Assembly (NCBI RefSeq): GCF_026151205.1
Contig: NW_026971800.1
Coordinates: 1-47,983 of the forward strand
DNA: 47,983 nt
Source of the DNA: Bolinopsis microptera
Taxonomy: Eukaryota > Ctenophora > Tentaculata > Lobata > Bolinopsidae
Direction of reading: 5' to 3'
In this document: one piece after another, positions 2,165 to 26,236 of the stretch
How the letters are laid out: each line of letters begins with the position of its first letter
Numbering within the stretch: position 1 is the first letter of the stretch
Position numbers and translations under genes: made by a program
The notes under the pieces: generated by a model
What the model was told of the DNA's origin: nothing
What the model saw: the letters and a program-made list of their open reading frames with translations, nothing else
Database searches by the model: none

Positions 2165-3954
2165 ATGCTAAGAGTCAACAATGTACTGAGATCAACAAGT
2201 TTGGGGGGCTCTCCCCAATACGGACGTCTGCAAGCTCTACCCCAACTTCAGCACAGCACTCCAGCCCGTCACAAACGCTCTGACGCACAAACTGACAGTC
2301 ACGTTGTTCCGCCCGTTCTCCTGAACTTCCAGGATGCGAAAGCAGCGTATGAGTCGAAAAACATGTTTGAACTGTTTAGATCCCGTATTGTGCTGCGTCT
2401 GTGTGGTATTGATTCCATTGTAAATAACAACGAGAAACTTTTGAAGTTCTCCAAAATAATGCTGCCGAAAAAGATGTTTGATTCTGTTATGAGGATGACA
2501 TTTTATGGTCAGTTTGTCGGTGGAGCTGATGTGAATGATCTACGACCAAAACTCTCAAAAATGCAGGAGTACGGGGTGAAGCCCATCCTGGATTACTCAG
2601 TTGAAGCAGATCTGAAGGAGGATGAAACAGATGAGATTCCCGAGATTGCTGTTACAGAAGTGCAGTTTAAGCAGGATTCCATTCCCACCAAGCGGTAGCT
2701 CGAGCTTATCCTTACAAAGGAGAAGACATTTGTGAGGAGAACTTGAAAATGATCCTGGAATGTTTGGAGACAGCGAGCCAAGTTTGTGATAAAAACGCAT
2801 TCTCCGCCATCAAGGTCACAGGTCTGAGTAAACCCAACGCACTGCTTGAAGGCTCTCATTTTTTGCATCGGATCCAGGAGTTGTATATCAAACATTCCCA
2901 AACGTTTGAAGGTACGCTGCCCTCCTATATCAACACCAAGTACCTCCCTAAAGATGTACTAGGACCCAAAGAACTTCTTGCAGAACTAAGAATGACGCTC
3001 GATAATTTCCGAGCTATGTTGACCAGTCTGGGCGCTGATTTAAACGAAAGTGAAATCACAGATATGTTTAATTCAATGTCTCCGGATGAAATGGGCCATA
3101 TTAAATACCACAGATTCCGTGAATTTTGCATGCCTGGTCCACCTGAGAAACCACTCTACACCGTGTTAACACATCTCAATCTTCCTGATGGTAAAATTAC
3201 AATGAGTGCCGATCACTTAGAAGCTCTTAATAGAGTCGAAGAAAGACTGATTGTGCTGTGCGACCGCGCAGTTGAGTTGGACGCCAAGATACTCATCGAC
3301 GCTGAACAGACCTACTTCCAACCTATGATAGGCTACTTTGCGAACAAGATGATGTCCCGATATAACAAGGAAAACGTTCACGTGTTCAACACGTATCAGT
3401 GTTATCTTAAGTCCACCCCGTCCCAGCTTATCTATGATGCAGATAAAGCGAACGTGCTGGGTTACAAACTTGGCGCAAAGCTTGTCCGTGGCGCGTACAT
3501 GGAACAAGAACGCCAACGTGCGCTCGACCTTAACAATGAGGACCCTATATACCCCGATAAAGCACACACGAACTCATGCTACCACAATATGGTTGAAATC
3601 GTCCTGAAGCAGATCGAAAGTCAGAAATGTCAGGTGATGATAGCATCCCACAACGAATTCACCATCCAGTACGTTGTGGAGCGAATGAGACAGTCTGGCA
3701 TTTGTCCGGCAAACGGAGGTATCTTCTTCGGACAGCTGCTTGGAATGTGTGATCAAGTCACGTACTTGTTAGGAGCAGGTGGGTACTGCAGCTATAAGTA
3801 CGTACCGTACGGACCCATTGAGGCTGTGTTACCGTATCTGTCCCGGCGTGCGTACGAGAATAAGGGAATGTTGAAGGGGAGTCAGAAGGAAATTGAGCTG
3901 CTGAAAGGAGAGCTGAAGAGAAGGAGATGGAGTGTGTTCAGTACTGCTAATTAA
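2165..3954 (+). CDS. PRODH: Proline dehydrogenase, mitochondrial, intronless, one frameshift
   Basis: FAD-dependent oxidation of L-proline to pyrroline-5-carboxylate at the mitochondrial inner membrane, the first step of proline catabolism. ATG 2165 gives an Arg-bearing, acid-free N terminus (MLRVNNVLRSTSLGG) suited to mitochondrial import. The first frame runs to a TAG at 2696-2698 and carries the family's FYGQFVGG and ILDYSVEADL segments. The rest is in another frame, open from 2671 and rejoining family sequence at ARAYPY (about 2698). A 1-2 nt indel within about 2671-2695 therefore separates two otherwise collinear parts. The second part has an EF-hand-like linker (3022-3130) and the catalytic barrel: IDAEQTYFQP (3295-3324), LVRGAY (3481-3498), ASHNE, FGQLLGMCDQ, YKYVPYGP (3793-3816) and the substrate-binding YLSRRAYEN (3835-3861). 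Total length, about 596 residues, matches animal PRODH. No introns are seen, although TTTTACAG directly before the ATG looks like a splice acceptor. It is either a retrocopy or intron-poor gene with a real frameshift, or an assembly indel in a working gene. Confidence 0.92.
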
Positions 3955-4991
3955 GGGTGATTGTATTTGTATGGTTAATTAGGAACGCTTTATTTAAACT
4001 GTGACCCAGGTTGAATTTGCTAGATTTATATCTAGAAACCCAGGCCCTTTGTAATCATTGTACAATGTACATTGTACATCGTACATTGGATTTAACTAAA
4101 TGTGTGTTGCTAGAATGCGTATTGTTTTTTATCGAAAATCTTTCAAAGCGACATACGGAATTAAACTTAGTCGAATTCATTAAAATTGTATACCTTTATC
4201 GGTGATATAAATTGAATAACTCGAAAATTAAAATCGCTAGGGAAGTTATATCATATATAGGATAGGATGTTTTTACATTTTGTATCAGCTGCAACGTATG
4301 TTAAAAACTTACTCTACAATTAACAATGGATTTTGCGCATATGGTTATGTATTTTATTCAGTTTAAGAGGATTCACCTTAATTTTTTTGTGATACTCGAG
4401 GGCCGGGGAGTATCACAAGTGATACTCGTGATTATTTCCGGCGAAAATGGTCAAATTCTCAAATTCAAAAACACTCGTGATCCCCCTACTCGTTTTCGAA
4501 ATAGCACTTCAGTTGACCACTAACTAAACCCGTGACAAACATTTTGAGGGGGTCACGGACCCAAGCATCAACTAGCTGAACTGTCGCAAAATAATATGTA
4601 GCTTTAGTTTTGCAGTTTATAAGGCTTTTATTATGCGGTACCAAAAGTTGTTTAAAAATGTTTAAAATGTTTTTGTCGAATGTCGCGTCGTTCACAAAAA
4701 CTTAAATTTGTTGTTTAGTATTTTAATAATAATAGTTTGTAAAGAGTGCGAGCGCAGCGTGCTAAATTACTTTTTCTACAACAGTTTGAGTTAATCTTCG
4801 AGATTGTTTTAAAAGCACCCCAGCGAACGCCGCGGGCTTCATGCGCCACTAAAACGTTTAAATTTCATTTTTATAATCCTCCCAAGACTCCTGTTAAGAC
4901 AAATTGCGAATGTTTAGCTTTAAAACTACTCTGTTCTTAAAACAATTGTTTTAATACTTTCAACACTACTATATAACAAATAATTTGAGGT
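3955..4991. other. Intergenic, two small hairpins, possible LINE 5' UTR
   Basis: No coding sequence that I recognise. Two short inverted repeats are visible: GTGATACTC at 4389-4397 with GAGTATCAC at 4408-4416 (the first half recurs at 4419), and CCGTGAC near 4531 with GTCACGG near 4553. The last few hundred bases probably hold the 5' UTR of the LINE that follows, but its exact left end cannot be set. No poly(A) tract follows PRODH. Confidence 0.5.
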
Positions 4992-5963
4992 ATGACACGA
5001 GGAGATACGAAACGAACACGAAATGTCAAGAAAAGTCCAGAGAAAACTGGTGCTACAGCAGAAAAGGATGTAACTGAAGATGAAGAAAATCGTAGTTGTG
5101 AATGCAGAAGGTATATTGAAGAGGAGTTTTCATTAGCTTGTGCATCCTGTGATATGTACTGGCATTATTGCTGTGTTGGACTGACAGGTCTGACACAAGA
5201 AGAAGGCGACCGTCTGTCTAACTGGCGTTGTCAAAATTGTTTCATATCACCTTACATTAAAAGCAACAGGACTCAGACCTCAAACCCTGATAATGAAGAA
5301 ACAAAAACACTACGGAATGTTATTAGGCAGGAACTTGAGGTCCTTACACCTTGTATCAGAGGGGTGGTTGAAAATGCAGTAAAAGATAACATTCCAACTA
5401 ACTTCGAGTCTGAAAAACCTAAAGAAATCACAAAAATAGTAAACCAGGCTTTCCAATCCTGGGCAGATGTGACTGCAAATAGTCAGAAGAAAGTTATGGA
5501 AGAAATGAGCCAACAGCAAGCTTCACAAAGTGTTATCAGTAAAGTTCAGACAAAGATGCACACTGATGAATATGAGCGAAATTTAAGAAAGCTCAATCTG
5601 TGTGTTTTGAATGTTCCAGAGAGCAAGAAAGCTGACACCAAGCTACGCCAGGAAGAGGACTCAAAGTTCTGCAAGGAGACACTAAAGATTGAAAAAAGGG
5701 ACTTTATCAGTTGCCATCGTGCAGGTAAAGTGGATCCAGATAAGCTAGACTCCTGTCGGCCATTGATCATCCAGACAGCTGACATGGAGTCAGTTAATTA
5801 TTATTCCAACCATGGCAAGGGCTGGAAAGAGTCATCATACTGGATAAATATGGATCTCTGCAGAGCAGACCGAGAGATCCGTTTTTTAGCCAGAGAAGAG
5901 AGGAAGAAGAGGCGGGAAGAAGCAGAGAAGAAAAAGACAGAGAAGAAGGTGGAGAAGAAATAA
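4992..5963 (+). CDS. LINE ORF1 with N-terminal PHD finger
   Basis: A 323-residue protein. A Cys4-His-Cys3 zinc ligand set is visible: C36, C38, C50, C53, H58, C61, C80 and C83, with the tryptophan of SNWRCQNC just before the last pair. This is a PHD-type finger, known from ORF1 of several CR1/L2-like elements. A helical middle (about 100-190) is followed by an RRM-like segment starting RNLRKLNLCVLNVPES (about 195-210), and a strongly basic Lys/Arg/Glu tail (REERKKRREEAEKKK) ends the protein. In this family ORF1 binds element RNA, and the PHD finger may read chromatin; that last role is inference. The stop lies 29 nt before the ORF2 ATG, the usual tight spacing. The frame is intact although ORF2 is broken. 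Confidence 0.85.
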   Translation: MTRGDTKRTRNVKKSPEKTGATAEKDVTEDEENRSCECRRYIEEEFSLACASCDMYWHYCCVGLTGLTQEEGDRLSNWRCQNCFISPYIKSNRTQTSNPDNEETKTLRNVIRQELEVLTPCIRGVVENAVKDNIPTNFESEKPKEITKIVNQAFQSWADVTANSQKKVMEEMSQQQASQSVISKVQTKMHTDEYERNLRKLNLCVLNVPESKKADTKLRQEEDSKFCKETLKIEKRDFISCHRAGKVDPDKLDSCRPLIIQTADMESVNYYSNHGKGWKESSYWINMDLCRADREIRFLAREERKKRREEAEKKKTEKKVEKK

Positions 5964-5992
5964 ATAGCATTCACAAAGAATGTAGTCAGCCC

Positions 5993-7833
5993 ATGAATAT
6001 TTTTTATACTAATGCTAATGGACTATTTAATAAAATTGATGAACTAAAATGTATTCTATCAGTTTATAAATCCATTCATGTAATCTGCATTACAGAAACT
6101 CATTTTAATAGTGATATTTTAGATGCTGAAATTTTTATTGAAGGTTTTAGTATGTTTAGAAAGGACAGAGATTTTAAAATCGATAACTCCACTAGCAACA
6201 TAAGTGGAGGTGGAGGTTCTATTATTTATATCAAAAACAGTTGTAATGCTTCATTAGTGAGCTCATTTTTAAAAGCACCAGATTCTTTAGCTATCAATGT
6301 CAATACCTCTGGTGGATTGATTAGTATTTGTTGTATTTATAGGTCTACTTCTTTAAATTTAGAACAGAACAATATGTTATTATCTTGCATCAAGAACATA
6401 TCTAGTGAAAAGAATGTTTTTGAAACTATTATTATAGGAGATTTTAACCTACCTAATGTATCTTGGGAAACTGGTAGTGTAAATAGTGGTATTTCTAGTA
6501 AGAATCAGGTTTTAATGATTCAACAAAAGTATATTGATTTATTTAATGACAGTGGTTTGATGTGGTACTTTACTAACGAAACAACCAGAAGACGGCTTGT
6601 GAAAGATACTCTCCAGGAGAGTCTTCTTGATCAGGTTTTGTATACAAATGATGCTCTTGTCAACGGTTGTAAGATCGTTTCTCCGCTTGGCAAGAGTGAT
6701 CATGTTGGGATACTTGTCGAACTGGTCGTTTCGCCCAACACTAACAAAAGTCCCAAACAAAAGATTTTGAAGCCTATTTGGGGTAAGATTTCCTCAGAGG
6801 AGTTATTTAACTTTAGTAAGAATAATATTGACTGGGATTATAGTTGTACAAATAATGTCCAAGATATGTGGGTTGAACTACATGGTAAATTGGAGTCTGT
6901 TGCTGCAGCTGTCCCAGCTGCTTCGGTTTATCTCGACAACAGACCTGTCAAGTTGCCATGGAGTACAACTTCACTTAAAAGAATGAGGAAGAACAAGGAC
7001 AAAGCATGGGCTGAATTTGATATTAATCCTTCGATTATTAACTTGAGCTGTGCAAATAGCAAGCAGCATATTTTTGAGGTGGCAGAAATTAAAGCTAAAG
7101 TAAATTATGAAAAGAAGATTACATCTAATTTAAAACAGAATTGTAAATCTTTTTACTCGTATTTGCGTAATAAACGACAAGTGAAATCAAGTGTTGTTTC
7201 TTTAGATAGAGGAGATGGTACACGCACAGATAGTTCATCTGAGTCAGCTGAGGTACAAGTGCTAGTGCCTTTAGTTCTGTGTTTGTGCGTGAACCACCTG
7301 GCCCTCTCCCTAAAAATGAGAGTTTAAGTTATAACAAAGAGGTTATTGATGATATGGAAATTAACAGTTCTGATATCAAGAAGCAGCTTTTAAAGCTTAA
7401 TGTTTTTAAGAGTTCGGGTCCAGATGGCGTTCATCCAAAGTTGTTGAAATCCTTAGCATACGATGAAATGTTTGTTGAAGCTGTTACTAAATTATTTGTT
7501 AAATGTTCAGAAACAGGAGTTCTGCCTGACATTTGGAAGACAGCATCTGTTGTAGCATTGTTTAAAAAGGGTGTTAAATCTGATCCCTTAAATTATAGAC
7601 CTGTCTCATTAACTTGTATTTTGTGCAAAGTGTATGAAAAGTTAGTGAGGGCACATTTATTAACATTTTTAGAAGAACGAATTTCAAAGCATCAGCATGG
7701 ATTTTTGAAGGGTAAATCTTGTCTATCTAATCTTTTAGAGACATTTGATAATATTCTTGATATTTTAGACGAAGGTGCTCCTGTCGATCTTTTGTATTTT
7801 GATTTTAGTAAGGCCTTTGACACAGTCCCCCAC
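5993..7833 (+). pseudogene. LINE ORF2, 5' part: endonuclease and RT up to motif A
   Basis: ORF2 makes the nicking endonuclease and reverse transcriptase for target-primed reverse transcription. The endonuclease is readable from ATG 5993: YTNANGLFNK at 5-14, the catalytic Glu in TETH (E35), IIGDFNLP (D150, N152), and SDH (D236, H237) near the domain end. A frameshift lies at 7252-7272: the first frame runs on to a stop at 7325-7327, while the family-like sequence continues from SAFSSVFV in another frame that is only open from 7252. The RT N-terminal part follows with KSSGPDGVHPKLL, NYRPVSLTC, HGFLKGKSC and motif A, LLYFDFSKAFDTVPH. At that point (7833) coding stops because a foldback element begins 6 bp later. 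The 3' half is at 12926-14131 in a frame that matches exactly once the insertion and one target copy are disregarded. Confidence 0.9.
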
Positions 7834-7839
7834 TTTAGA
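7834..7839. repeat. Target site duplication TTTAGA, left copy
   Basis: TTTAGA directly precedes the AGGCCTCCCCCAGCC terminus of the insertion. It recurs directly after the mirror terminus at 12926-12931. One copy is native LINE sequence encoding Phe-Arg of ORF2. Confidence 0.93.
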
Positions 7840-7885
7840 AGGCCTCCCCCAGCCTCGGATCTTAGGATTAGATTTGCAAAAATTC

Positions 7886-8262
7886 CTGAGACACAGGTGC
7901 AAAAGTTAAGACAGCAGAATAATCCTAAGACAGCAGAATAATCCTAAGACAAAATTTAAGAAATCCTGAGACAGCGAAAAATCCTGAGACAAAATTTAAG
8001 AAATCCCGAGACAGCGAAAAAACCTGAGACAAAATTTAAGAAATCCCGAGACAGCGAAAAAACCTGAGACAAAATTTAAGAAATCCCGAGACAGCGAAAA
8101 AACCTAAGACAAAATTTAAGAATCCTGAGACGCGCGAAAAAACCTGAGACAAAATTTAAGAAATCCCGAGACAGCGAAAAATCCTGAGACAAAATTTAAG
8201 AAAACCTGAGACAGCGAAAAATCCTGAGACAAAATTTAAGAAAACCTGAGACAGCGAAAAAT
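7886..8262. repeat. About 40-bp minisatellite, left arm
   Basis: Subterminal tandem repeat in which AAAATTTAAGAAATCC alternates with GAGACAGCGAAAAA. The unit is about 40 bp, with roughly nine copies in total. The first units are degenerate (CAGCAGAATAATCCTAAGAC) and become regular inward. One unit has CGCGCGAAAAAA in place of CAGCGAAAAAA, and the right arm shares this variant, so the arms were copied from each other after it arose. Confidence 0.88.
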
Positions 8263-8407
8263 TTTTAGATACAATTTATACAATAGCCACAAGAATATAC
8301 ATGGATATTACATCTTTTAATTTCTTGCAAAGAATATAATAAATACAATATTACTAGGTATAGTAGGAATGTCAATAAGTCAATAGAATTTGTCTGAAAC
8401 CTCTATG

Positions 8408-8570
8408 TGCCTGCTAATGAAGTGAGTATCCCAGATCATATCTTTCCAGATCATATCCCAGATCATATCTTCACAGATCATATCTTTACAGGTAGGACTG
8501 TATAATGGGGGCCCGATGTTATAGCGGACATCATCTCCCCCCCCCCCCCCCCCCTTACCCCTTCTTACCC
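8408..8570. repeat. GATCATATC-rich module with poly-C tract
   Basis: Four short tandem copies of an AGATCATATC-type unit (about 8435-8490), then CAGGTAGGACTGTATAATGG, a GATGTTATAGCGGACATCAT segment and a C-run of about 18 followed by CCCTTACC blocks. A diverged direct copy of the same module sits at the inner end of this arm (10039-10127), so the arm is bracketed by two copies of one module. Confidence 0.75.
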
Positions 8571-8750
8571 CCAGTTCCATAGCGGATATTATGCCAAATT
8601 ATTGGACGGAGATCGTCAACTAATATTTCTTCGGATATTTCTCCGGTTTGCAGTTCCATAACCTTATCCGGAGACCATCTACGGTAATTTTGTTGATTCT
8701 CACAGAGCAAAGTGCAAAGAAACTGCCACAAACTGCTACAATCTCCGAGA
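8571..8750. repeat. MITE half copy, left arm
   Basis: From CAGTTCCATAGCGGATATTA to CTACAATCTCCGAGAAAT this is nearly identical to the first 180 bp of the complete MITE at 9238-9533, in the same orientation. It then runs into unrelated sequence instead of the second terminus. The right arm has lost most of this half copy: there CTTTGCACTTTGCT joins GGGGGTAAGG directly at about 12117. Confidence 0.8.
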
Positions 8751-9115
8751 AATCTACTTATTGAGTTATTGACTAGCTTGCTAAAATTCATCGGCAAATT
8801 ACCGCTGCTCGAATCAATCAAAAGTTACCTAGCCAGGCCCATTTCAGTTTTGAGTACTGGAGTCGGTTATCTAGTCAAAGCCTAGCTTTTTTGTAACTTG
8901 CAAGTGCTTTTGCGGATTGTCGTGGATTTCGGCAAATAGTCGTGGATTTCGGCGATATTTTCAGATTATTCTTCAATGTCCTCAAACCTGAGCACTGGGA
9001 CTACTTAAGTTTTTGCTACTATCTGAATTATTTGCTCAAGCTACTGGCTCGCTAGGTTCAAAGGTTTATTTCCTATTTATCATGAAAAAAAAATTGTGCT
9101 GGGTAAAAGTTTACA

Positions 9116-9190
9116 CGGTGTTCACGCAGGTTTGAACACCCGACCTCGCGCAGAGCTAGCCGATCGCCTAGCAGCTAAGCTACTCGGGTG
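9116..9190 (-). repeat. tRNA-like (SINE head) module, left arm
   Basis: On the minus strand it reads CCGAGTAGCTTAGC followed by a region resembling an internal RNA polymerase III promoter. An A-box-like TAGCTTAGC block is followed some 35 bp later by a B-box-like GTGTTCAAACC. The length (about 75 bp) and spacing fit a tRNA-derived SINE head. I could not draw a convincing cloverleaf or anticodon arm, so I do not call a tRNA gene. The mirror copy is at 11636-11712. Confidence 0.5.
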
Positions 9191-9237
9191 ATGTACTCAA
9201 GAAATTTTTGATGTAAATATATATTTACCCCTTTTTA

Positions 9238-9533
9238 CCCCAGTTCCATAGCGGATATTATGCCAAATTATTGGACGGAGATCGTCAACTAATATTTCTT
9301 CGGATATTTCTCCGGTTTGCAGTTCCATAACCTTATCCGGAGACCATCTACGGTAATTTTGTTGATTCTCACAGAGCAAAGTGCAAAGAAATTGCCACAA
9401 ACTGCTACAATCTCCGAGAAATTCCCGGAGAGCTTCATCTCCGTATAATACAGTAGACGGAGCCGGAGAATCATCACCGTAGAAATGGACCTCCGTCTAA
9501 TAATTTGGCATAATATCCGCTATGGAACTGGGG
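9238..9533. mobile_element. MITE with about 43-bp terminal inverted repeats, left arm
   Basis: Both ends read inward as CCCCAGTTCCATAGCGG, then ATATTATGCCAAATTATT, then an (A/G)GACGGAG block, with one mismatch over about 43 bp. The body (about 296 bp) is rich in CCGGAG/CTCCG motifs. There is no coding potential of note. A target duplication cannot be set because both flanks are C/G runs. Confidence 0.8.
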
Positions 9534-9902
9534 GGTTAATCTGATTAAAAGCTACAAAAAATTCCAGAAATGAGATGGCTGGTTAACACCTACCTTTGGA
9601 AAGCTCTGATGAACCTGCCTGTGGAGAAATAAACGCACTTAACTTCACCTCAATTGAGCAATAACTATTTATCGCTTATTACTTCATTTATTTTGGATGT
9701 ACAGTGTGCTTCGTAACTAATTTATTATTACAAAGTTTACTTTCTAATAAGCTAAAACGACAACTAATCTTTCGTTTTACTCCCTACTGTACAGGTTTAC
9801 TCGTCAATCCAGGTATATGAGAATGTGTGAGAATGGTCTTGAAACTCTGAAAAGAGGGAAGCAGTTTTGGGGACGGGGAGATTGAAGCGGGTGGGCGACA
9901 AA
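9530..9902. repeat. About 370-bp module ending GGGTGGGCGACAA
   Basis: This module occurs three times in the foldback element: here, inverted at 10923-11287 in the right arm, and as a clearly diverged copy in the spacer (about 10309-10700). Landmarks are TAATCTGATTAAAAGCTACA, GAGAAATAAACGCACTTAAC, TACTCGTCAATCCAGGTATA and the GGGTGGGCGACAA end. Confidence 0.75.
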
Positions 9903-9919
9903 TGAACCCCCCCCCCCCT

Positions 9920-9943
9920 ATTGTAAGCCCCCCGGCTTACAAT
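9920..9943. repeat. ATTGTAAGCC hairpin
   Basis: A perfect 10-bp stem (ATTGTAAGCC and GGCTTACAAT) closes over four C. It directly follows a long C-run, and the mirror copy is in the right arm near 10880-10903. It is followed by TCAATTG/CAATTGTCG-type repeats. Confidence 0.75.
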
Positions 9944-10127
9944 TGACCCCCCATGCAATTACACTGAGTCAATTGATCTCAGTATAATAACATGGGGGTT
10001 AATTGTCGGGGGTCAATTGTCGTACTAAGCCCTAGATTGTACCTGCTAATGAGGTGAATATCCCAGATCATAGCTTCACAGGTAGGACTGTATAATGGGG
10101 GCCCTGATGTTATAGTGGACATCACTT

Positions 10128-10710
10128 CCGTCACTACGTAGTAGCTCGTGACACTGGGCTCCAGTTGGACGACCTTCGAACTGTTATGTGCGATCAAGAC
10201 GTGTGGAGGCAGACAGTGAATGGGAGTTCGATCGAGGATCGCCGAAAGTAAGTAAGTTGTTCAATCCCCCAGTACCTTTATTATTATAATTACCCTCCTA
10301 GGCTCCTACATCCTACCCGTTTTTGATGCTGTAATCTTCCCGTCCCCAAAACCGCTAATTCCCTCTTTTCATAGTTTCAGGACCGTTCTAATACATACTC
10401 CTATACCTGAATTGACGAGTAATCCAGTACAGTAGGAAAGTTAACTTTGTAGCTTTTCAGAAAGTTAACTTTGTAGCTTTTTAGAAAGTTCGGAGTAATC
10501 ACTCAGGTATAGTATCTCACAACGAAGCCCAATCTACATCCAAAATAAATGAAGTTATAAGCAATAAATAGGCAGTTATTGCTCAATTGAGCTGAAGTTA
10601 AGTGTGTTTATTTCTCCACGGGCTAGTCCATCGGAGCTTTCCCAAGGTAGGTTTTAACCAATCTCATTTCTTGACTGTTTTGTATCCTTTAATCAGATAC
10701 GGGAGGGGAA
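10128..10710. other. Foldback spacer with a diverged third module copy
   Basis: Unpaired centre of the foldback element. 10128-10308 is unrelated to the arms. In it, a short stretch around 10189-10250 would translate to a peptide with DVWRQTVNGSS, faintly like the C-terminal end of some LINE ORF2 proteins, too short to call. 10309-10700 is a diverged direct copy of the module at 10923-11287. No complete gene is present. Confidence 0.7.
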
Positions 10711-11289
10711 AGTGATGTCCACTATAACATCAGGGCCCCCATTATACAGTCCTACCTGTGAAGCTATGATCTGGGATATTCACCTCATTAGCAGGTACAA
10801 TCTAGGGCTTAGTACGACAATTAACCCCCATGTTATTATACTGAGATCAATTGACTCAGTGTAATTGCATGGGGGGTCAATTGTAAGCCGGGGGGCTTAC
10901 AATAGGGGGGGGGGGGGTTCATTTGTCGCCCACCCGCTTCAATCTCCCCGTCCCCAAAACTGCTTCCCTCTTTTCAGAGTTTCAAGACCATTCTCACACA
11001 TTCTCATATACCTGGATTGACGAGTAAACCAGTACAGTAGGGAGTAAAACGAAAGATTAGTTGTCGTTTTAGCTTATTAGAAAGTAAACTTTGTAATAAT
11101 AAATTAGTTACGAAGCACACTGTACATCCAAAATAAATGAAGTAATAAGCGATAAATAGTTATTGCTCAATTGAGGTGAAGTTAAGTGTGTTTATTTCTC
11201 CACGGGCAGGTTCATCAGAGCTTTCCAAAGGTAGGTTTTAACCAGCCATCTCATTTCTGGAATTTTTTGTAGCTTTTAATCAGATTAAC

Positions 11290-11586
11290 CCCCCAGTTCC
11301 ATAGCGGATATTATGCCAAATTATTAGACGGAGGTCCATTTCTACGGTGATGATTCTCCGGCTCCGTCTACTGTATTATACGGAGATGAAGCTCTCCGGG
11401 AATTTCTCGGAGATTGTAGCAGTTTGTGGCAATTTCTTTGCACTTTGCTCTGTGAGAATCAACAAAATTACCGTAGATGGTCTCCGGATAAGGTTATGGA
11501 ACTGCAAACCGGAGAAATATCCGAAGAAATATTAGTTGACGATCTCCGTCCAATAATTTGGCATAATATCCGCTATGGAACTGGGG
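11290..11586. mobile_element. MITE with about 43-bp terminal inverted repeats, right arm
   Basis: Mirror copy of the element at 9238-9533, with ends CCCCAGTTCCATAGCGG and CCGCTATGGAACTGGGG. Because it occupies the same relative place in both arms, it was in the sequence before the arm duplicated. Confidence 0.8.
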
Positions 11587-11635
11587 TAAAAAGGGGTAAA
11601 TATATATTAACATCAAAAATTTCATGAGTACATCA

Positions 11636-11712
11636 CCCGAGTAGCTTAGCGGCCAGGCGATCGGCTAGCTCTGCGCGAGGTCGGGTGTTCAAACCTGCGT
11701 GAACACCGTGTA
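11636..11712 (+). repeat. tRNA-like (SINE head) module, right arm
   Basis: A-box-like TAGCTTAGCGG at 11642-11652 and B-box-like GGTGTTCAAACC at 11684-11695. It differs from the left copy in the A-box flank (GCGGCCAGGC here, GCTGCTAGGC there), showing that the arms have begun to diverge. The anticodon arm is not convincing, so it is a tRNA-derived repeat rather than a gene. Confidence 0.5.
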
Positions 11713-12418
11713 AACTTTTACCCAGCACAATTTTTTTTCATGATAAATAGGAAATAAACCTTTGAACCTAGCGAGCCAGTAGCTTGAGCAAATAATTCAG
11801 ATAGTAGCAAAAACTTAAGTAGTCCCAGTGCTCAGGTTTGAGGACATTGAAGAATAATCTGAAAATATCGCCGAAATCCACGACTATTTGCCGAAATCCA
11901 CGACAATCCGCAAAAGCACTTGCAAGTTACAAAAAAGCTAGGCTTTGACTAGATAACCGACTCCAGTACTCAAAACTGAAATGGGCCTGGCTAGGTAACT
12001 TTTGATTGATTCGAGCAGCGGTAATTTGCCGATGAATTTTAGCAAGCTAGTCAATAACTCAATAAGTAGATTTCTCGGAGATTGTAGCAGTTTGTGGCAG
12101 TTTCTTTGCACTTTGCTGGGGGTAAGGGGGGGGGGGGGGGGGGGGGAGATGATGTCCGCTATAACATCGGGCCCCCATTATACAGTCCTACCTGTAAAGA
12201 TATGATCTGTGAAGATATGATCTGGGATATGATCTGGAAAGATATGATCTGGGATACTCACTTCATTAGCAGGCACATAGAGGTTTCAGACAAATTCTAT
12301 TGACTTATTGACATTCCTACTATACCTAGTAATATTGTATTTATTATATTCTTTGCAAGAAATTAAAAGATGTAATATCCATGTATATTCTTGTGGCTAT
12401 TGTATAAATTGTATCTAA

Positions 12419-12890
12419 AAATTTTTCGCTGTCTCAGGTTTTCTTAAATTTTGTCTCAGGATTTTTCGCTGTCTCAGGTTTTCTTAAATTTTGTCTCAGG
12501 ATTTTTCGCTGTCTCGGGATTTCTTAAATTTTGTCTCAGGTTTTTTCGCGCGTCTCAGGATTCTTAAATTTTGTCTTAGGTTTTTTCGCTGTCTCGGGAT
12601 TTCTTAAATTTTGTCTCAGGTTTTTTCGCTGTCTCGGGATTTCTTAAATTTTGTCTCAGGATTTTTCGCTGTCTCAGGATTTCTTAAATTTTGTCTTAGG
12701 ATTTTTCGCTGTCTTGGGTTTCCTTAAATTTTGTCTCAGGATTATCTGCTGTCTTAGGTTTCCTTAAATTTTGTCTTAAGACTTTTCGCTGTCTTAGCTT
12801 ATTTTGACATCTCAGGTTCGCTTAAATTTTGTCTCAGCTTTTTTTGCAGTCTTAGCTTTTCTTAAGCAGTTTGTCTTAGGAATTTTTGCA
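12419..12890. repeat. About 40-bp minisatellite, right arm
   Basis: Mirror of the left-arm array. Units are built from TTCTTAAATTTTGTCTCAGG and TTTTTCGCTGTCTC. It has about two extra, degenerate units at the outer side (12720-12880), including TTTTGACATCTCAGG and TTTTTGCAGTCTTAGC, that the left arm lacks. Confidence 0.87.
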
Positions 12891-12925
12891 AATCCAATCC
12901 TAAGATCCGAGGCTGGGGGAGGCCT

Positions 12926-12931
12926 TTTAGA
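12926..12931. repeat. Target site duplication TTTAGA, right copy
   Basis: TTTAGA directly follows the AGGCCT terminus and is identical to 7834-7839. It is immediately followed by CTTCTATCTAAATTGGAGG, the continuation of the RT coding sequence. Confidence 0.93.
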
Positions 12932-14131
12932 CTTCTATCTAAATTGGAGGGGTTTGGGGTCAAGGGAAAAGTTCTAGATGTTATAAAAGACTTTCTGACA
13001 GACAGAACCATGAGGGTTTGTGTAGAAGGACAATGGTCTGAGGTGAAACACGTGTTATCTGGTGTTCCCCAGGGGTCAGTATTGGGTCCTTTGTTATTTA
13101 TTCTTTATATAAACGATTTACCTGACAATGTTAAAAATAAGATTAAATTATTTGCAGATGATCTCAAGTTAGTTTGTAATGCAGCTAACCATGGAAGTGT
13201 ATCTGATGATATTTTAGAACTCGAAATTTGGGAGAGTTTTTGGCACTTAAACTTCAATCCTGCCAAGTGTAAAGTAGTTCATATTAATCTGAATAATAAT
13301 CCTAACTCGAATTATATTATAAATGGAGTGGAACTAGAAGTATCTGCACAGGAAAAAGATTTGGGGGTTATTACCCATAGCTCCTTGCTTTGGAATGAAC
13401 AGATAAAAGCATGTATTTCTAAAGCAAATCGTATGATCTGCTGGATTGTAAGGAACTTAGTTATTAGAGAAAAGGTTGTAATGATATCTATTTATAAAGC
13501 TTTGATAAGACCTCATCTTGAGTATTGTGTCCAATTGTGGAATCCAGTTGCGGCTCATGGAAGTTGGGGGACTGTTTTGGAGCTGGAGAGCGTCCAGAGG
13601 CGGTTTACCCGTCTTATTGATGAGGTGGGTACTCTTCCATACAGCCGTAGACTGGATATACTCAATTTGACAACGCTGGCAGAGCGGCGAATACGTGGGG
13701 ACCTTATTGAAGCTTTTAAAGTAACTAGTGGTTTGACTGAATATGGATCGGGTTTGTTCAGAATGAGCAGATCTGGTCTTAATTTAGTTTCAACCAATAG
13801 ATGTAGTAAGAGTGTAACTAAAGTCAGGAATATTCAGTCTTCTTTTCTTCCGGAGCGAGTCATTCCTTATTGGAACAAACTCCCTTCAGATGTCAAGAAC
13901 TGCTCGACAGTTTTAAGCTTTAAAGTTAGATTGGAAGGATTTAAGAAAGAAATGATTTCTAAAAACAGTGTAAATGATTCTTATTTTTGGACTGTTTCGA
14001 ATGAAGTTTTAGGGAAAATTGAAGGACCAAGTTATTTAAGCAATAAGGAGAGACATAATGAATATCTTTGGTTTCATCCTTTTGTGGCAAAGAAGCGTTT
14101 TATAAATCTTTATTCCACTGGGAAGTATTAA
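12926..14131 (+). pseudogene. LINE ORF2, 3' part: RT from motif B to the C terminus
   Basis: Starting in the target duplication, the frame reads FRLLSKLEGFG and continues the family pattern that motif A (FDTVPH) begins at 7816-7833, so the insertion sits between RT motifs A and B. Visible RT features are GVPQGSVLGPLLFILYINDL (motif B and beyond), KLFADDLKLVC (motif C, with the catalytic Asp pair), and the thumb/C-terminal region with RRIRGDLIEAFK and a later RVIPYWNKLPSDV signature seen in metazoan CR1/L2-like elements. It has 401 codons and no internal stop. No RNase H domain is apparent. The part has no start codon of its own at the junction, and it is dead in this copy. Confidence 0.9.
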
Positions 14132-15042: not shown

Positions 15043-16480
15043 GTATTTTAAAACAAGTAACTCGGGCCCAGTTCGTAGAGAAGATGGATTTGCTGTATTT
15101 TAAAACAAGTAACTCGGGCCCAGTTCGTAGAGAAGATGGATTTGCTGTATTTTAAAACAAGTAACTCGGGCCCAGTTCGTAGAGAAGATGGATTTGCTGT
15201 ATTTTAAAACAAGTAACTCGGGCCCAGTTCGTAGAGAAGATGGATTTGCTGTATTTTAAAACAAGTAACTCGGGCCCAGTTCGTAGAGAAGATGGATTTG
15301 CTGTATTTTAAAACAAGTAACTCGGGCCCAGTTCGTAGAGAAGATGGATTTGCTGTATTTTAAAACAAGTAACTCGGGCCCAGTTCGTAGAGAAGATGGA
15401 TTTGCTGTATTTTAAAACAAGTAACTCGGGCCCAGTTCGTAGAGAAGATGGATTTGCTGTATTTTAAAACAAGTAACTCGGGCCCAGTTCGTAGAGAAGA
15501 TGGATTTGCTGTATTTTAAAACAAGTAACTCGGGCCCAGTTCGTAGAGAAGATGGATTTGCTGTATTTTAAAACAAGTAACTCGGGCCCAGTTCGTAGAG
15601 AAGATGGATTTGCTGTATTTTAAAACAAGTAACTCGGGCCCAGTTCGTAGAGAAGATGGATTTGCTGTATTTTAAAACAAGTAACTCGGGCCCAGTTCGT
15701 AGAGAAGATGGATTTGCTGTATTTTAAAACAAGTAACTCGGGCCCAGTTCGTAGAGAAGATGGATTTGCTGTATTTTAAAACAAGTAACTCGGGCCCAGT
15801 TCGTAGAGAAGATGGATTTGCTGTATTTTAAAACAAGTAACTCGGGCCCAGTTCGTAGAGAAGATGGATTTGCTGTATTTTAAAACAAGTAACTCGGGCC
15901 CAGTTCGTAGAGAAGATGGATTTGCTGTATTTTAAAACAAGTAACTCGGGCCCAGTTCGTAGAGAAGATGGATTTGCTGTATTTTAAAACAAGTAACTCG
16001 GGCCCAGTTCGTAGAGAAGATGGATTTGCTGTATTTTAAAACAAGTAACTCGGGCCCAGTTCGTAGAGAAGATGGATTTGCTGTATTTTAAAACAAGTAA
16101 CTCGGGCCCAGTTCGTAGAGAAGATGGATTTGCTGTATTTTAAAACAAGTAACTCGGGCCCAGTTCGTAGAGAAGATGGATTTGCTGTATTTTAAAACAA
16201 GTCACTCGGGCCCAGTTCGTAGAGAAGATGGATTTGCTGTATTTTAAAACAAGTAACTCGGGCCCAGTTCGTAGAGAAGATGGATTTGCTGTATTTTAAA
16301 ACAAGTCACTCGGGCCCAGTTCGTAGAGAAGATGGATTTGCTGTATTTTAAAACAAGTAACTCGGGCCCAGTTCGTAGAGAAGATGGATTTGCTGTATTT
16401 TAAAACAAGTAACTCGGGCCCAGTTCGTAGAGAAGATGGATTTGCTGTATTTTAAAACAAGTAACTCGGGCCCAGTTCGT
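15043..16480. repeat. 52-bp satellite, about 27.7 copies
   Basis: Unit TGGATTTGCTGTATTTTAAA, then ACAAGTAACTCGGGCCCAGT, then TCGTAGAGAAGA (52 bp), in head-to-tail order. Copies are almost identical. The only common variant is GTCACTCGGG in place of GTAACTCGGG at about 16201 and 16305, exactly two units apart. Such homogeneity points to recent amplification. Each unit carries one GGGCCC. Confidence 0.97.
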
Positions 16481-16483
16481 ACG

Positions 16484-16539: not shown

Positions 16540-17838
16540 GTCAGTTTACGGACAAATAAAGTCGAAAAGCATTAATCAGAATATGTTTTAGGCTGTCCCA
16601 AAATTTCGGATTCTTTTTCTGTAGTTTGAAATTGGCGGGAATTTTAAAACTCTCGGTACCAAACCAATATTTTCAGCGCAGAGTTTTAGCGCGCGCCAAG
16701 AGCACACACGTATTTTTGCATTGAAGCTGCGCGTTATTTGCACGTGCACTTCTACAGATTAAAATTTGGAGAGGGCCCTTACTGCTTACATTACTAAGTT
16801 GTTATGTAGTAATATTGTGAATTTGTCCGAAACTGGAAACAAATCTTGTAAAATTTTACGAATAGAAGTTATAGTATTACTTGACTGTAAAAATTTACTG
16901 AGTTTCACTTCCATATTTCAGGATCCGACCGCTGATATTAAAATTGAAGAGTTAGATTTCATTGGAACATGGAATTACTGTAATGGAAAATAAAACAGGT
17001 CTTGCTGAGCACTGAGGATGAAGAAATGTTATGTGGGGAGAAAATGGGCTACTGGAAGCACTCCTGCGCGCAGTGTTGTGACCTCCCTTCGTCGTAATTA
17101 GCTCGTATTCAGATTGAACAATTTTGAAGTCAAATAAATGTTGTTTCTTTTAGATTTGAATAAACAATAAGGATTCAGTCCGAAAGTAATTTGTCTACTA
17201 AATAACATTTTGAAATTATGAACAAAATTGGTAAAAATTTGCCATAGTTGTGACCAAAAAATTACGCGCAGAATTAGATATTTCTTCATAAACGCGTGAA
17301 CATTTTTGAGTTTAACATTGAATATCTTAGCTCGGTTATTTTAATACTTAATTTTGAAGTATCTATCCGATGACTAAACATTTTATCTTTACGACAGTAT
17401 AATTTTTTTTTTGTATATTTGCTAAATTAAAAAAAACAGTAGGAATAGAGGATGATAATTAATCACTCTACAGTCGACTGTCACGTGACAAAAACGCCGT
17501 GATTTCATTGGTTAACCTGATAACGCGCCGCAGATCTCTATAAACACAAATTATTCATCGCGCGTGCAGTAAACTCAAATTAAGTCCTAATTTGTTACCG
17601 AAATTTGGCAACTATCAACATCATGGCACAATTAAGTCGCATGCCCAGTAAATTGCTAATCAAATGTACGGCACTAATAATACAGTCTACACTTACAGTG
17701 TATGAATTCATGAACGAATTTATTAAGGCAGATTGGTAGAACAACGATCGTAAATGATAATTTGTATTAACAGTGGAAAGTGTTCTTAAGGGAGACTGTT
17801 GTGCAGCCATGTCGGGAGTTATAAAACACCGAACACGA
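16540..17838. other. Unannotated spacer with promoter-like motifs
   Basis: No protein I can defend. Motifs seen: an E2F-like TTGGCGGGAA (16632-16641), CACGTG within GTCACGTGAC near 17481, an ATTGG (inverted CCAAT) near 17508 and a TATAAA-like CTCTATAAAC near 17537. The open frames at 16766-16993 (+) and 17595-17810 (-) show no family features. Promoter activity is only a possibility. Confidence 0.35.
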
Positions 17839-20800
17839 CATTAAAAACACTTTCCAACTACAAAACTTAACCACTAAACCAGCTTTGAGCACCATTTCTA
17901 GGTTATGAGACGGCTAAATGATGCGAATAATAAATCCTCAGAGCTCCCAGTACCTTCTCTACATTAAAAACACTTTCCAACTACAAAACTTAACCACAAA
18001 ACCAGCGAGATCTGAGCACTATTTCTAGGTTATGAGACGGCTAAATGATGCGAATAATAAATCCTCAGATCTCCCAGTACTCTACATTAAAAACACTTTC
18101 CAACTACAAAACTTAACCACAAAACCAGCTCTGAGCACTATTTCTAGGTTATGAGACGGCTAAATGATGCGAATAATAAATCCTCAGAGCTCCCAGTACT
18201 CTACATTAAAAACACTTTCCAACTACAAAACTTAACCACAAAACCAGCTCTGAGCACTATTTCTAGGTTATGAGACGGCTAAATGATGCGAATAATAAAT
18301 CCTCAGATCTCCCAGTACTCTACATTAAAAACACTTTCCAACTACAAAACTTAACCACAAAACCAGCTCTGAGCACTATTTCTAGGTTATGAGACGGCTA
18401 AATGATGCCAATTATAAATCCTCAGAGCTCCCAGTACTCTACATTAAAAACACTTTCCAACTACAAAACTTAACCACTAAACTGCAGCTCTGTGCACTAT
18501 TTCTAGGTTATGAGACGGCTAAATGATGCCAATTATAAATCCTCAGAGCTCCCAGTACTCTACATTTAAAACACTTTCCAACTACAAAACTTAACCACAA
18601 AACCAGCGATCTGAGCACTATTTCTAGGTTATGAGACGGCTAAATGATGCGAATAATAAATCCTCAGATCTCCCAGTACTCTACATTAAAAACACTTTCC
18701 AACTACAAAACTTAACCACAAAACCAGCTCTGAGCACTATTTCTAGGTTATGAGACGGCTAAATGATGCCAATTATAAATCCTCAGATCTCCCAGTACTC
18801 TACATTAAAAACACTTTCCAACTACAAAACTTAACCACAAAACCAGCTCTGAGCACTATTTCTAGGTTATGAGACGGCTAAATGATGCGAATAATAAATC
18901 CTCAGATCTCCCAGTACTCTACATTAAAAACACTTTCCAACTACAAAACTTAACCACAAAACCAGCTCTGAGCACTATTTCTAGGTTATGAGACGGCTAA
19001 ATGATGCCAATTATAAATCCTCAGAGCTCCCAGTACTCTACATTAAAAACACTTTCCAACTACAAAACTTAACCACAAAACCAGCTCTGAGCACTATTTC
19101 TAGGTTATGAGACGGCTAGATGATGCCAATTATAAATCCTCAGAGCTCCTAGTACTCTACATTAAAAACACTTTCCAACTACAAAACTTAACCACAAAGC
19201 CAGCTTTGAGCACTATTTCTAGGTTATGAGACGGCTAAATGATGCGAATAATAAATCCTCAGATCTCCCAGTACTCTCATTAAAAACACTTTCCAACTAC
19301 AAAACTTAACCACAAAACCAGCTCTGAGCACTATTTCTAGGTTATGAGACGGCTAAATGATGCCAATTATAAATCCTCAGAGCTCCCAGTACTCTACATT
19401 AAAAACACTTTCCAACTACAAAACTTAACCACAAAACCAGCTCTGAGCACTATTTCTAGGTTATGAGACGGCTTAATGATGCGAATAATAAATCCTCAAA
19501 TCTCCCAGTACTCTACATTAAAAACACTTTCCAACTACAAAACTTAACCACAAAACCAGCTCTGAGCACTATTTCTAGGTTATGAGACGGCTAAATGATG
19601 CGAATAATAAATCCTCAGATCTCCCAGTACTCTACATTAAAAACACTTTCCAACTACAAAACTTAACCACAAAACCAGCGATCTGAGCACTATTTCTAGG
19701 TTATGAGACGGCTAAATGATGCGAATAATAAATCCTCAGATCTCCCAGTACTCTACATTAAAAACACTTTCCAACTACAAAACTTAACCACAAAACCAGC
19801 TCTGAGCACTATTTCTAGGTTATGAGACGGCTAAATGATGCCAATTATAAATCCTCAGAGCTCCCAGTACTCTACATTAAAAACACTTTCCAACTACAAA
19901 ACTTAACCACAAAACCAGCTCTGAGCACTATTTCTAGGTTATGAGACGGCTAAATGATGCGAATAATAAATCCTCAGATCTCCCAGTACTCTACATTAAA
20001 AACACTTTCCAACTACAAAACTTAACCACAAAACCAGCTCTGAGCACTATTTCTAGGTTATGAGACGGCTAAATGATGCGAATAATAAATCCTCAGATCT
20101 CCCAGTACTCTACATTAAAAACACTTTCCAACTACAAAACTTAACCACAAAACCAGCTCTGAGCACTATTTCTAGGTTATGAGACGGCTAAATGATGCGA
20201 ATAATAAATCCTCAGATCTCCCAGTACTCTACATTAAAAACACTTTCCAACTACAAAACTTAACCACAAAACCAGCTCTGAGCACTATTTCTAGGTTATG
20301 AGACGGCTAAATGATGCGAATAATAAATCCTCAGATCTCCCAGTACTCTACATTAAAAACACTTTCCAACTACAAAACTTAACCACAAAACCAGCTCTGA
20401 GCACTATTTCTAGGTTATGAGACGGCTAAATGATGCGAATAATAAATCCTCAGATCTCCCAGTACTCTACATTAAAAACACTTTCCAACTACAAAACTCA
20501 ACCACAAAACCAGCTCTGAGCACTATTTCTAGGTTATGAGACGGCTAAATGATGCGAATAATAAATCCTCAGATCTCCCAGTACTCTACATTAAAAACAC
20601 TTTCCAACTACAAAACTTAACCACAAAACCAGCTCTGAGCACTATTTCTAGGTTATGAGACGGCTAAATGATGCCAATTATAAATCCTCAGAGCTCCCAG
20701 TACTCTACATTAAAAACACTTTCCAACTACAAAACTTAACCACTAAACCAGCTCTGAGCACTATTTCTAGGTTATGAGACGGCTAAATGATGCGAATAAT

Positions 20801-22679
20801 AAATCCTCAGAGCTCCCAGTACTCTACATTAAAAACACATTCCAACTACAAAACTTAACCACAAAACCAGCTCTGAGCACTATTTCTAGGTTATGAGACG
20901 GCTAAATGATGCGAATAATAAATCCTCAGATCTCCCAGTACTCTACATTAAAAACACTTTCCAACTACAAAACTTAACCACAAAACCAGCTCTGAGCACT
21001 ATTTCTAGGTTATGAGACGGCTAAATGATGCCAATTATAAATCCTCAGAGCTCCCAGTACTCTACATTAAAAACACTTTCCAACTACAAAACTTAACCAC
21101 AAAACCAGCTCTGAGCACTATTTCTAGGTTATGAGACGGCTAAATGATGCGAATAATAAATCATCAGATCTCCCAGTACTCTACATTAAAAACACTTTCC
21201 AACTACAAAACTTAACCACAAAACCAGCTCTGAGCACTATTTCTAGGTTATGAGACGGCTAAATGATGCGAATAATAAATCCTCAGATCTCCTAGTACTC
21301 TACATTAAAAACACTTTCCAACTACAAAACTTAACCACAAAACCAGCTCTGAGCACTATTTCTAGGTTATGAGACGGCTAAATGATGCGAATAATAAATC
21401 CTCAGATCTCCCAGTACTCTGCATTAAAAACACTTTCCAACTACAAAACTTAACCACAAAACCAGCTCTGAGCACTATTTCTAGGTTATGAGACGGCTAA
21501 ATGATGCGAATAATAAATCCTCAGAGCTCCCAGTACTCTACATTAAAAACACTTTCCAACTACAAAACTTAACCACAAAACCAGCTCTGAGCACTATTTC
21601 TAGGTTATGAGACGGCTAAATGATGCGAATAATAAATCCTCAGATCTCCCAGTACTCTACATTAAAAACACTTTCCAACTACAAAACTTAACCACAAAAC
21701 CAGCTCTGAGCACTATTTCTAGGTTATGAGACGGCTAAATGATGCCAATTATAAATCCTCAGAGCTCCCAGTACTCTACATTAAAAACACTTTCCAACTA
21801 CAAAACTTAACCACAAAACCAGCTCTGAGCACTATTTCTAGGTTATGAGACGGCTAAATGATGCGAATAATAAATCCTCAGATCTCCCAGTACTCTACAT
21901 TAAAAACACTTTCCAACTACAAAACTTAACCACAAAACCAGCTCTGAGCACTATTTCTAGGTTATGAGACGGCTAAATGATGCGAATAATAAATCCTCAG
22001 AGCTCCCAGTACTCTACATTAAAAACACTTTCCAACTACAAAACTTAACCACAAAACCAGCGATCTGAGCACTATTTCTAGGTTATGAGACGGCTAAATG
22101 ATGCGAATAATAAATCCTCAGATCTCCCAGTACTCTACATTAAAAACACTTTCCAACTACAAAACTTAACCACAAAACCAGCTCTGAGCACTATTTCTAG
22201 GTTATGAGACGGCTAAATGATGCGAATAATAAATCCTCAGATCTCCCAGTACTCTACATTAAAAACACTTTCCAACTACAAAACTTAACCACAAAACCAG
22301 CTCTGAGCACTATTTCTAGGTTATGAGACGGCTAAATGATGCGAATAATAAATCCTCAGATCTCCCAGTACTCTACATTAAAAACACTTTCCAACTACAA
22401 AACTTAACCACAAAACCAGCTCTGAGCACTATTTCTAGGTTATGAGACGGCTAAATGATGCGAATAATAAATCCTCAGATCTCCCAGTACTCTACATTAA
22501 AAACACTTTCCAACTACAAAACTTAACCACAAAACCAGCTCTGAGCACTATTTCTAGGTTATGAGACGGCTAAATGATGCCAATTATAAATCCTCAGAGC
22601 TCCTAGTACTCTACATTAAAAACACTTTCCAACTACAAAACTTAACCACAAAGCCAGCTTTGAGCACTATTTCTAGGTT
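17839..22679. repeat. 119-bp satellite, about 40.7 copies
   Basis: The unit runs from CATTAAAAACACTTTCCAAC to CTCCCAGTACTCTA (119 bp). Two subtypes are mixed: one with GATGCGAATAATAAATCC plus AGATCTCCC, one with GATGCCAATTATAAATCC plus GAGCTCCC. Several copies are recombinants (GCGAATAATA with GAGCTCCC). A few copies are longer by 2 nt or so (CCAGCGATCTGAGC, near 18004, 18603, 19676 and 22058). The last copy decays at TTCTAGGTTCTAAAACGAC. Confidence 0.97.
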
Positions 22680-23652
22680 CTAAAACGACAAAACGATGCG
22701 AATTATAAATCTCCCACTGCGTAAGCCGGTAAACTAATTAACCGGCTAAAAAAGCTGAGACGGCTATTATGTATTATCGTAACGACATGATCACGGCCGT
22801 TAAATGGCTATTAGTTGACTGTTCATAACAGCTGCTCTATATTTGTGCGCTCTATCATAAGGTTGTTTCAGAGCTGCTAAACTCCGGCTAATATAACAAG
22901 CCTTTTTATATAGCCATTTAAGAAGGAAAAATACTTAGCACTTTACAACCAACAATCACTCATGTTTTAAACCTTTATAGCGAGTCGGCATATTACAATT
23001 TTACCGAAGTCAATTATTTTTACTTGAAAAGTATAAGAGTTAAGACTGCAGAATCTTTAGTATTATAAGTATAAAAAGCAGAAAAACACGCCACATGAGG
23101 TCTCAAAATATAGATAACAGTAAGATTTTTAATCTGCCTGCACGTGAGATGGGGGGAATGTTTTTTATTCTTCTTCTTTGCAGGAAGTGGTAACCTGTTC
23201 TATCCCTCTAGTTCTTTTTGTTGTTACGCCACTGCTTGTTGTATTTCCTGCTATCACTGGTTGTGTGTTCCGGCCCTGTTAGTGTTCTTGGACAGCCAGG
23301 ACTGTTTTTCTTTGCTCCTGATAAGATATTTATGATAAGATATTTATGAAAAATAAAATAAGGAGGAAAGGAATTATTCAACGTTTCAATGTGACAACAT
23401 CGTAATCAAACGTGGGATCAACAGAAATTTGACTCTCATAAATAATATTCAATTCGGATTTCAAATATAATAAGGAGCTAAATAAAGTAGTGTTTAAACC
23501 AAATTAATTGATGAGTACACCCGTCTTATTATATGCTATAGATTGAGTTATACAATATCAATATATACATCTATGCAGAATTTGATATGTATGAATCATG
23601 ATTCCACCTAATTTGTGAACGGAAATTATTGCGGAATCGAAACTTTTTAAAT
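22680..23652. other. Unannotated spacer
   Basis: The first 100 bp still echo the 119-bp satellite (GATGCGAATTATAAATC, then GAGACGGCTATTATG), with CCGGTAAACTAATTAACCGG as a small hairpin near 22724-22743. The rest is AT-rich with no recognisable coding or RNA features. Confidence 0.45.
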
Positions 23653-26015: not shown

Positions 26016-26044
26016 AGCCATGTAACTATCTGGAAAGTTTAAAG

Positions 26045-26212
26045 TCAGGGTCAGGATCAGGATCAGGATCAGGATCAGGATCAGGGTCAGGATCAGGGTC
26101 AGGGTCAGGGTCAGGGTCAGGGTCAGGGTCAGGGTCAGGGTCAGGGTCAGGGTCAGGGTCAGGGTCAGGGTCAGGGTCAGGGTCAGGGTCAGGGTCAGGG
26201 TCAGGGTCAGGG
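26045..26212. repeat. (TCAGGG/TCAGGA)n hexamer array, about 28 units
   Basis: A pure hexanucleotide tract. TCAGGA predominates in the first eight units, then TCAGGG is uniform. It differs by one base from the metazoan telomere hexamer TTAGGG. It directly abuts the last fragment of the 178-bp array on the left and TTAATTGTCGCCCACCC on the right. Its translation on the minus strand (Leu-Thr repeats) is not a gene. Confidence 0.95.
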
Positions 26213-26236
26213 TTAATTGTCGCCCACCCATTTTAC

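Follow-up and report, generated by a model that had tools for sequence, protein, structure and literature searches.

The window analyzed here is the whole of contig NW_026971800.1 of the ctenophore Bolinopsis microptera (assembly GCF_026151205.1; 47,983 nucleotides, C41 in our contig numbering), and it contains, at positions 7840 to 12925, an element with long inverted arms that has inserted into a long interspersed nuclear element (LINE) with duplication of 6 bp of its target. On balance we favor the explanation that this element is a non-autonomous, foldback-shaped DNA transposon that arose by internal deletion from a longer element and is moved in trans by the large protein of a long relative. 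The family to which it belongs is probably undescribed and perhaps specific to ctenophores; our search of the open-licence literature found no description of foldback elements with 6-bp duplications, or of ctenophore transposons of this kind. Some foldback elements are orphans, and for Tetris it is reported that no autonomous partner was found (PMC4079207). As the present genome also contains a long relative, it becomes possible to test which enzyme moves a foldback element.

The window element and its empty site

The interrupted LINE is of the endonuclease-reverse transcriptase (RT) type, with its endonuclease domain at 5798-7327 and RT sequence on both sides of the insertion. When the two flanks are joined with a single TTTAGA, the RT frame continues uninterrupted, and the joined 300-nt flank aligns over its full length to all 40 of the LINE copies that were scored (from 173 candidates at first look), two of them at 100%; exactly 300 bases are spanned in 37 of these copies and 301-310 in the other three. 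These uninterrupted copies are the empty site of the window element. An earlier note, made from the letters of the window alone, had set both ends of the element to the base between two copies of TTTAGA, had given it exact inverted termini and arms of 2.29 and 2.2 kb, and had read it as a split in a LINE reverse transcriptase whose frame is otherwise continuous; all of this was borne out. The features of the element and its target are as follows (E, expectation value; MITE, miniature inverted-repeat transposable element).

7840..12925, no strand: the element, 5086 bp (inverted ends, matches to the family ends, empty site in LINE copies)
7834..7839, no strand: left target-site duplication TTTAGA (one of 23 paired copies checked)
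12926..12931, no strand: right target-site duplication TTTAGA (sequence read directly)
7840..7874, plus strand: L-type end (..ATTAGATT), from the 35-bp end pattern search
12891..12925, minus strand: R-type end (..ATTGGATT), from the 35-bp end pattern search
7840..10127, plus strand: left arm, 2.29 kb (self-complementarity)
10710..12925, minus strand: right arm, 2.22 kb (self-complementarity)
7921..8262, plus strand: left array, 8.5 copies of a 40-bp unit whose consensus has two CCTGAGACA motifs
12421..12865, minus strand: right array of 40-bp units (tandem-repeat and self-complementarity scans)
10128..10135, no strand: putative deletion junction of 8 bases, between left-arm sequence and right-hand sequence of the 16.2-kb copy described below; identical in copies L030 and L034
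10136..10709, no strand: spacer, of which 10150-10349 matches the right-hand interior of the 16.2-kb copy with no differences
9237..9533, plus strand: nested MITE-like repeat of ~300 bp in the left arm
11290..11586, minus strand: nested MITE-like repeat of ~300 bp in the right arm
7252..7839, plus strand: target LINE, first RT part (RVT_1, E 5.8e-11)
12932..14131, plus strand: target LINE, second RT part (RVT_1, E 9.5e-14)

The window has a single copy of the terminal sequence AGGCCTCCCCCAGCC, at 7840, and a single copy of its complement, at 12911; TTTAGA adjoins both ends. The inverted match between the termini is exact over 30 bp and has 2 mismatches within 54 bp. Blocks of 97-100% complementarity make up most of the length of the arms, and left and right are 98.99% identical over an inner stretch of 795 bp; the outermost 440 bp, which contain most of the 40-bp arrays, are only ~80% alike. 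The window element has the feature of the foldback class, inverted arms of great length that include tandem repeats, and the 40-bp units are possible transposase-binding repeats. The MITE-like repeat, one unit of which lies in each arm, has the ends CCCCAGTTCCATAGCGGATATTATGCC and also exists as solo copies of ~300 bp (95-98% identity) at no fewer than 12 other places among the matches listed.

The window element looks coding-free, as the earlier note had proposed. The stretch analyzed has 15 frames of at least 65 amino acids (aa), two of which are LINE, and none of the 13 others has a Pfam match at or above the cut-off. Two mirror-image frames in the arms, at 8555-8824 (minus strand) and 11999-12205 (plus strand), gave sub-cut-off matches to His1_capsid (E 0.0055 and 0.0027; 17-18 bits versus 27) that are probably due to chance.

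The family in the genome

The genome searched amounts to 264.65 Mb in 232 contigs, of which C1 to C13 each extend past 14 Mb; among higher-numbered contigs, four were seen to have lengths below 50 kb. A 35-bp end pattern, allowed up to 3 mismatches, was found at 57 places, and the reversed pattern, which served as the control, at none. Of these ends, 46 form 23 inverted pairs that span 3.1 to 16.2 kb (median 5.2 kb) and 11 are solitary. Inspection of all the pairs revealed a perfect 6-bp target duplication at 22 of them, each different from the others; the remaining copy (L040) has damaged ends, with a duplication of 5 bp in its present state, or of 6 bp should the element end have lost a base. 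When 17 pairs were re-tested by script, the longest match was 6 in 16 of them and 5 in L040. The earlier note had named copies with different ends or a different duplication length as refuting its reading, and the family did not bear this out. Since the end copies are so numerous against an empty control, and the duplications perfect and all different at 22 of the 23 pairs, a chance origin is excluded. With L040 read as 6 bp, the 23 target sites lean towards TTWWAA: position 2 is T in 18 of them, position 5 is A in 15 and position 6 is A in 16, and these preferences show dyad symmetry.

In every one of the 23 pairs, position 31 of the terminus is A at one end and G at the other, so that each element has one L end and one R end. 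Likeness over the outer 200 bp is only ~70-77% between an L end and an R end, but mostly 96-100% when one end type is compared among copies. For the inner arms, 18 loci were offered for comparison and 14 gave a stretch longer than 650 bp (23 arms, with both arms at nine loci); copies L036, L038, L039, L040 and L042 constitute a more divergent set, four loci of which gave no stretch and are left out of the figures. Inner-arm identity is 98.6% between left and right within one element, 98.6% between elements on the same side and 98.1% between elements on opposite sides. By these likenesses the main set of the family is young, and the slight excess of likeness within elements is compatible with some conversion from arm to arm.

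Some candidates for larger or intact members of the family were examined and rejected. A seeming giant element of 54 kb on C2 has R-type sequence at both ends, and its ends together with their outside flanks constitute one inverted segmental duplication, so that it stands outside the 23 pairs. The two diverged family ends concerned (L064 and L065, at C2:1467551 and 1521556, 54 kb apart) are among the 11 solitary ends. Copies L028, L042 and L038 are not intact autonomous elements, their inserts holding reverse transcriptase (RVT_1), and the insert of L026 is of low complexity. An ORF (open reading frame) of 171 aa in L040 was discarded as a common coding remnant, blastp finding no similarity to the L047 ORF of the long copy.

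The 16.2-kb relative and its large protein

The longest pair, at C1:13698479-13714689, is 16.2 kb in length, is flanked by the duplication TTGTAA and has an interior of ~10.3 kb with coding frames, including a stop-free frame of 1038 codons (L048:440-3553) and several smaller ones. Other copies of the family share the outer parts of this element and are missing varying amounts of its interior. In positions of the 16.2-kb copy (offset 13,698,000), the deepest right-hand position kept is 13488 in L037, 13495 in L043, 13557 in L025, 13564 in L027, 13711 in L044 and 14099 in L041; 13553 is common to seven copies (L026, L028, L029, L031, L032, L033 and L035), and 13687 is common to the window copy, L030 and L034, all three with an identical junction. 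A 10.2-kb copy (C1:20986356) reaches 13299 and retains 182 bp of the interior at 99% identity. The left-hand breakpoints are harder to place, the arms being repetitive. Microhomology of 4 bp marks the junction in L037. Such varied right-hand breakpoints are as expected under repeated internal deletion, and the comparison supports the derivation of the window element from a longer element resembling the 16.2-kb copy. The breakpoints that copies have in common suggest that some deleted forms then multiplied.

We assign the interior to the element because the 10.2-kb copy retains part of it and because relatives of interior ORFs are found with family features elsewhere. On C2, one interior ORF has a relative (76% aa, interrupted by stops) that is situated ~0.6 kb from a diverged family end (~87%), and on C9 the relative of the first interior ORF (79% aa) is ~0.5 kb from coding sequence related to the paralogues of the large protein. 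A later insertion of the 10.3-kb interior with a 4-bp duplication was considered and is ruled out by the second copy with part of the interior, by the differing breakpoints and by the lack of inverted ends at the junction.

The 1038-codon frame predicts the large protein that we infer to be the transposase of the family. It has paralogues at other loci, and matches one on C12 at 29%, along 400 aa of L052 and along two stretches of 140 and 100 aa in L060. The two halves of the C12 paralogue match consecutively numbered gene models of Mnemiopsis leidyi, ACHWQZ_G010909 (63%) and ACHWQZ_G010908 (52%), and the paralogue also matches five unnamed ENA proteins; Mnemiopsis is the only named organism matched. 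The motifs conserved in this group are YD(E/G)Q(E/D)(I/L)NQG (VDEQ.. in P0009) and EH.FG, with a zinc-finger-like CxxC..H motif in some members. Candidate D, D and E motifs for an RNase-H-like catalytic core were picked by eye only, and the acidic residues of the large protein might represent a DDE triad.

If these assignments are correct, the large protein (with a zinc-finger-like N-terminus, YD.Q..NQG, then an SD motif, a stretch that is probably a beta-propeller, and EH.FG) would act as transposase, would bind the 40-bp repeats near the element ends, and would excise the element and insert it at TTWWAA-like sites by staggered cutting, with 6 bp between the cuts; the short copies would depend on enzyme supplied in trans from elsewhere. 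A broader proposal, which we put forward tentatively and hold to be possible rather than probable, is that the family represents a novel superfamily among the cut-and-paste transposons of animals, encountered to date in ctenophores only, with a transposase that carries a beta-propeller between its catalytic motifs and with short foldbacks of fixed L/R polarity generated by repeated internal deletion. Were the candidate protein the transposase, a superfamily would be added from a lineage that is possibly sister to all other animals.

Several observations weigh against a transposase role for this protein, or against its place in the element. No catalytic domain is recognized: the 1038-aa frame gave no Pfam hit with an E of 0.1 or lower, four paralogues gave one sub-cut-off match only (E 0.063), and searches by sequence returned no match for the large protein in the PDB and none for the frame in a general protein search. 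A search of viral contigs likewise gave no match. The large ORF is split by a frame change towards its C-terminus, with likeness to the paralogue resuming in a frame of 246 codons, and since this is the sole long copy, an enzyme gene in intact form was not found. The earlier note had called for a search for an autonomous relative with the same ends; the 16.2-kb copy has such ends and a coding interior, though not an unbroken enzyme gene. The complete interior with the full-length large ORF is present in one family copy only, a weak, sub-cut-off LINE-like fragment lies within it (L047:4684-5001), and the C9 coding sequence matches the paralogues, yet gave no match to the large ORF at E 0.01. 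The paralogue elements did not yield readable ends. Structure prediction gave an N-half model that is not usable (mean pLDDT, the predicted local distance difference test score, 35.7) and a C-half model of low confidence (mean pLDDT 40.6), mostly strand over residues 45-308. A fold search with this low-confidence C-half model placed WD-repeat and similar chains on top (E ~6e-6, with TM-scores of at most 0.37 among the 50 matches listed), most of which we take to be beta-propellers; this is only a hint of a beta-propeller-like fold.

Two further observations concern sequences related to the large ORF. Loci L050, L051, L053 and L056 (C10, C11) represent a separate repeat family, alike over up to 3.7 kb at 79-97%, in which ~800 bp correspond to the large ORF region (DNA 82-92% identical), and either gene capture or common ancestry might account for this. 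In L052, a tandem array with a unit of ~185 bp (605-1226 and 2749-4158) flanks the N-half exon of the paralogue on both sides.

Known transposon systems and other possible movers

Drosophila FB, Tetris and Meloidogyne Tm1 resemble the window family in their very long, internally repeated inverted arms and their many coding-free copies, and FB makes a 9-bp duplication. Published accounts give duplications of 8-10 bp for Tetris (PMC4079207) and mostly of 9 bp for Tm1 (PMC3169594). The window family differs from these Mutator-type foldbacks in having 6 bp at 22 of its 23 pairs, the last being damaged. No transposase of the MULE (Mutator-like element) type was recognized above the Pfam cut-off among the 27 interior frames of at least 65 aa (L047 and L048), where all matches were sub-cut-off and a very divergent enzyme could escape detection. 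Galileo, of the P superfamily, is described as foldback-shaped, with arm tandem repeats in some subfamilies that are proposed to be secondary transposase-binding sites, and with a 7-bp duplication (PMC3573991). It is like the window family in shape and in its arm repeats but differs in the duplication length and in its P-type transposase, no P-type Pfam match being present in the 1038-aa frame.

Two other groups were set apart by their ends, inverted repeats and targets rather than by protein search. IS3EU and GingerRoot usually make 6-bp duplications and have TA..TA ends, GingerRoot occasionally TG..CA (PMC10045372); the duplication agrees with that of the window family, whereas the AG..CT ends of the latter do not. 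Dada makes 6-7 bp duplications at small-RNA genes, its targets, and lacks terminal inverted repeats (PMC3706591). It resembles the window family in duplication length and in having a large transposase, and is unlike it in that the family has long inverted repeats and 23 different AT-leaning sites, with flanks that were not searched for RNA genes.

Polintons (Mavericks) have the 6-bp duplication and AG..CT end bases, and their size class agrees with that of the 16-kb long copy. A Polinton integrase of the same genome might accordingly mobilize the foldback copies in trans, the large ORF being a passenger in the 16.2-kb copy, and we regard this as unlikely though credible. The genome has 20 matches to the polymerase domain PF03175, of which 13 are in stop-free frames of 859-1261 aa, and two reports describe 6-bp duplications as a product of Polintons (PMC10045372, PMC8097293). 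Yet none of the 20 matches falls within any of the 23 paired copies, and neither the protein-primed polymerase B nor the rve integrase was recognized in interior ORFs of at least 65 aa in the 16.2-kb copy, a genome-wide rve search not having been made. The common end motif of vertebrate Mavericks, given in the same source as (AGT)2 or (AG)3 with other motifs also existing (PMC8097293), is absent from the family ends, which are AGGCCT; the ends of the local Polintons were not read. The earlier note had named Polinton-type and Dada-like enzymes as possible movers, and neither suggestion found support; its more general view, of a foldback element moved in trans and possibly of an undescribed family, is supported. 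The Polinton-type polymerase genes include inverted pairs 8-11 kb apart with frames of 1261 aa, at C7:6691702/6702995, C9:6595755/6606125 and C9:663553/671611.

It is also quite unlikely, in our estimate, that some other transposase, for example of the hAT type, is the mover, with the 16.2-kb interior partly captured or nested. Duplications of 5, 6 and 7 bp all occur among hAT families (PMC12730594), and the weak LINE-like fragment inside the interior would fit such a history. The 182 bp kept by the second copy at C1:20986356, the company of interior-ORF relatives and family features on C2 and C9, and an L037 junction without inverted ends visible by eye all speak against it. An assembly or duplication artefact without real insertion, to which the small unplaced contig of the window (48 kb) and the additional inverted end pair on C2 that turned out to be a segmental duplication might have lent some credence, is refuted by the 23 paired copies, which differ in their duplications and flanks and of which 21 lie on chromosome-size contigs.

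In its workings the family thus resembles a foldback terminal inverted repeat transposon and has the 6-bp step in common with Polintons, but its assignment to any of the superfamilies compared fails in at least one feature.

Elsewhere in the window, an open frame of 427 codons upstream of the LINE (2671-3954, plus strand) has a proline dehydrogenase domain (PF01619, E 9.1e-60), and tandem arrays are present at 17838-22711 (119-bp unit, 41 copies, 97%), at 15043-16481 (52-bp unit, 28 copies, 99%) and at 26044-26213 (GTCAGG, 28 copies, 97%).

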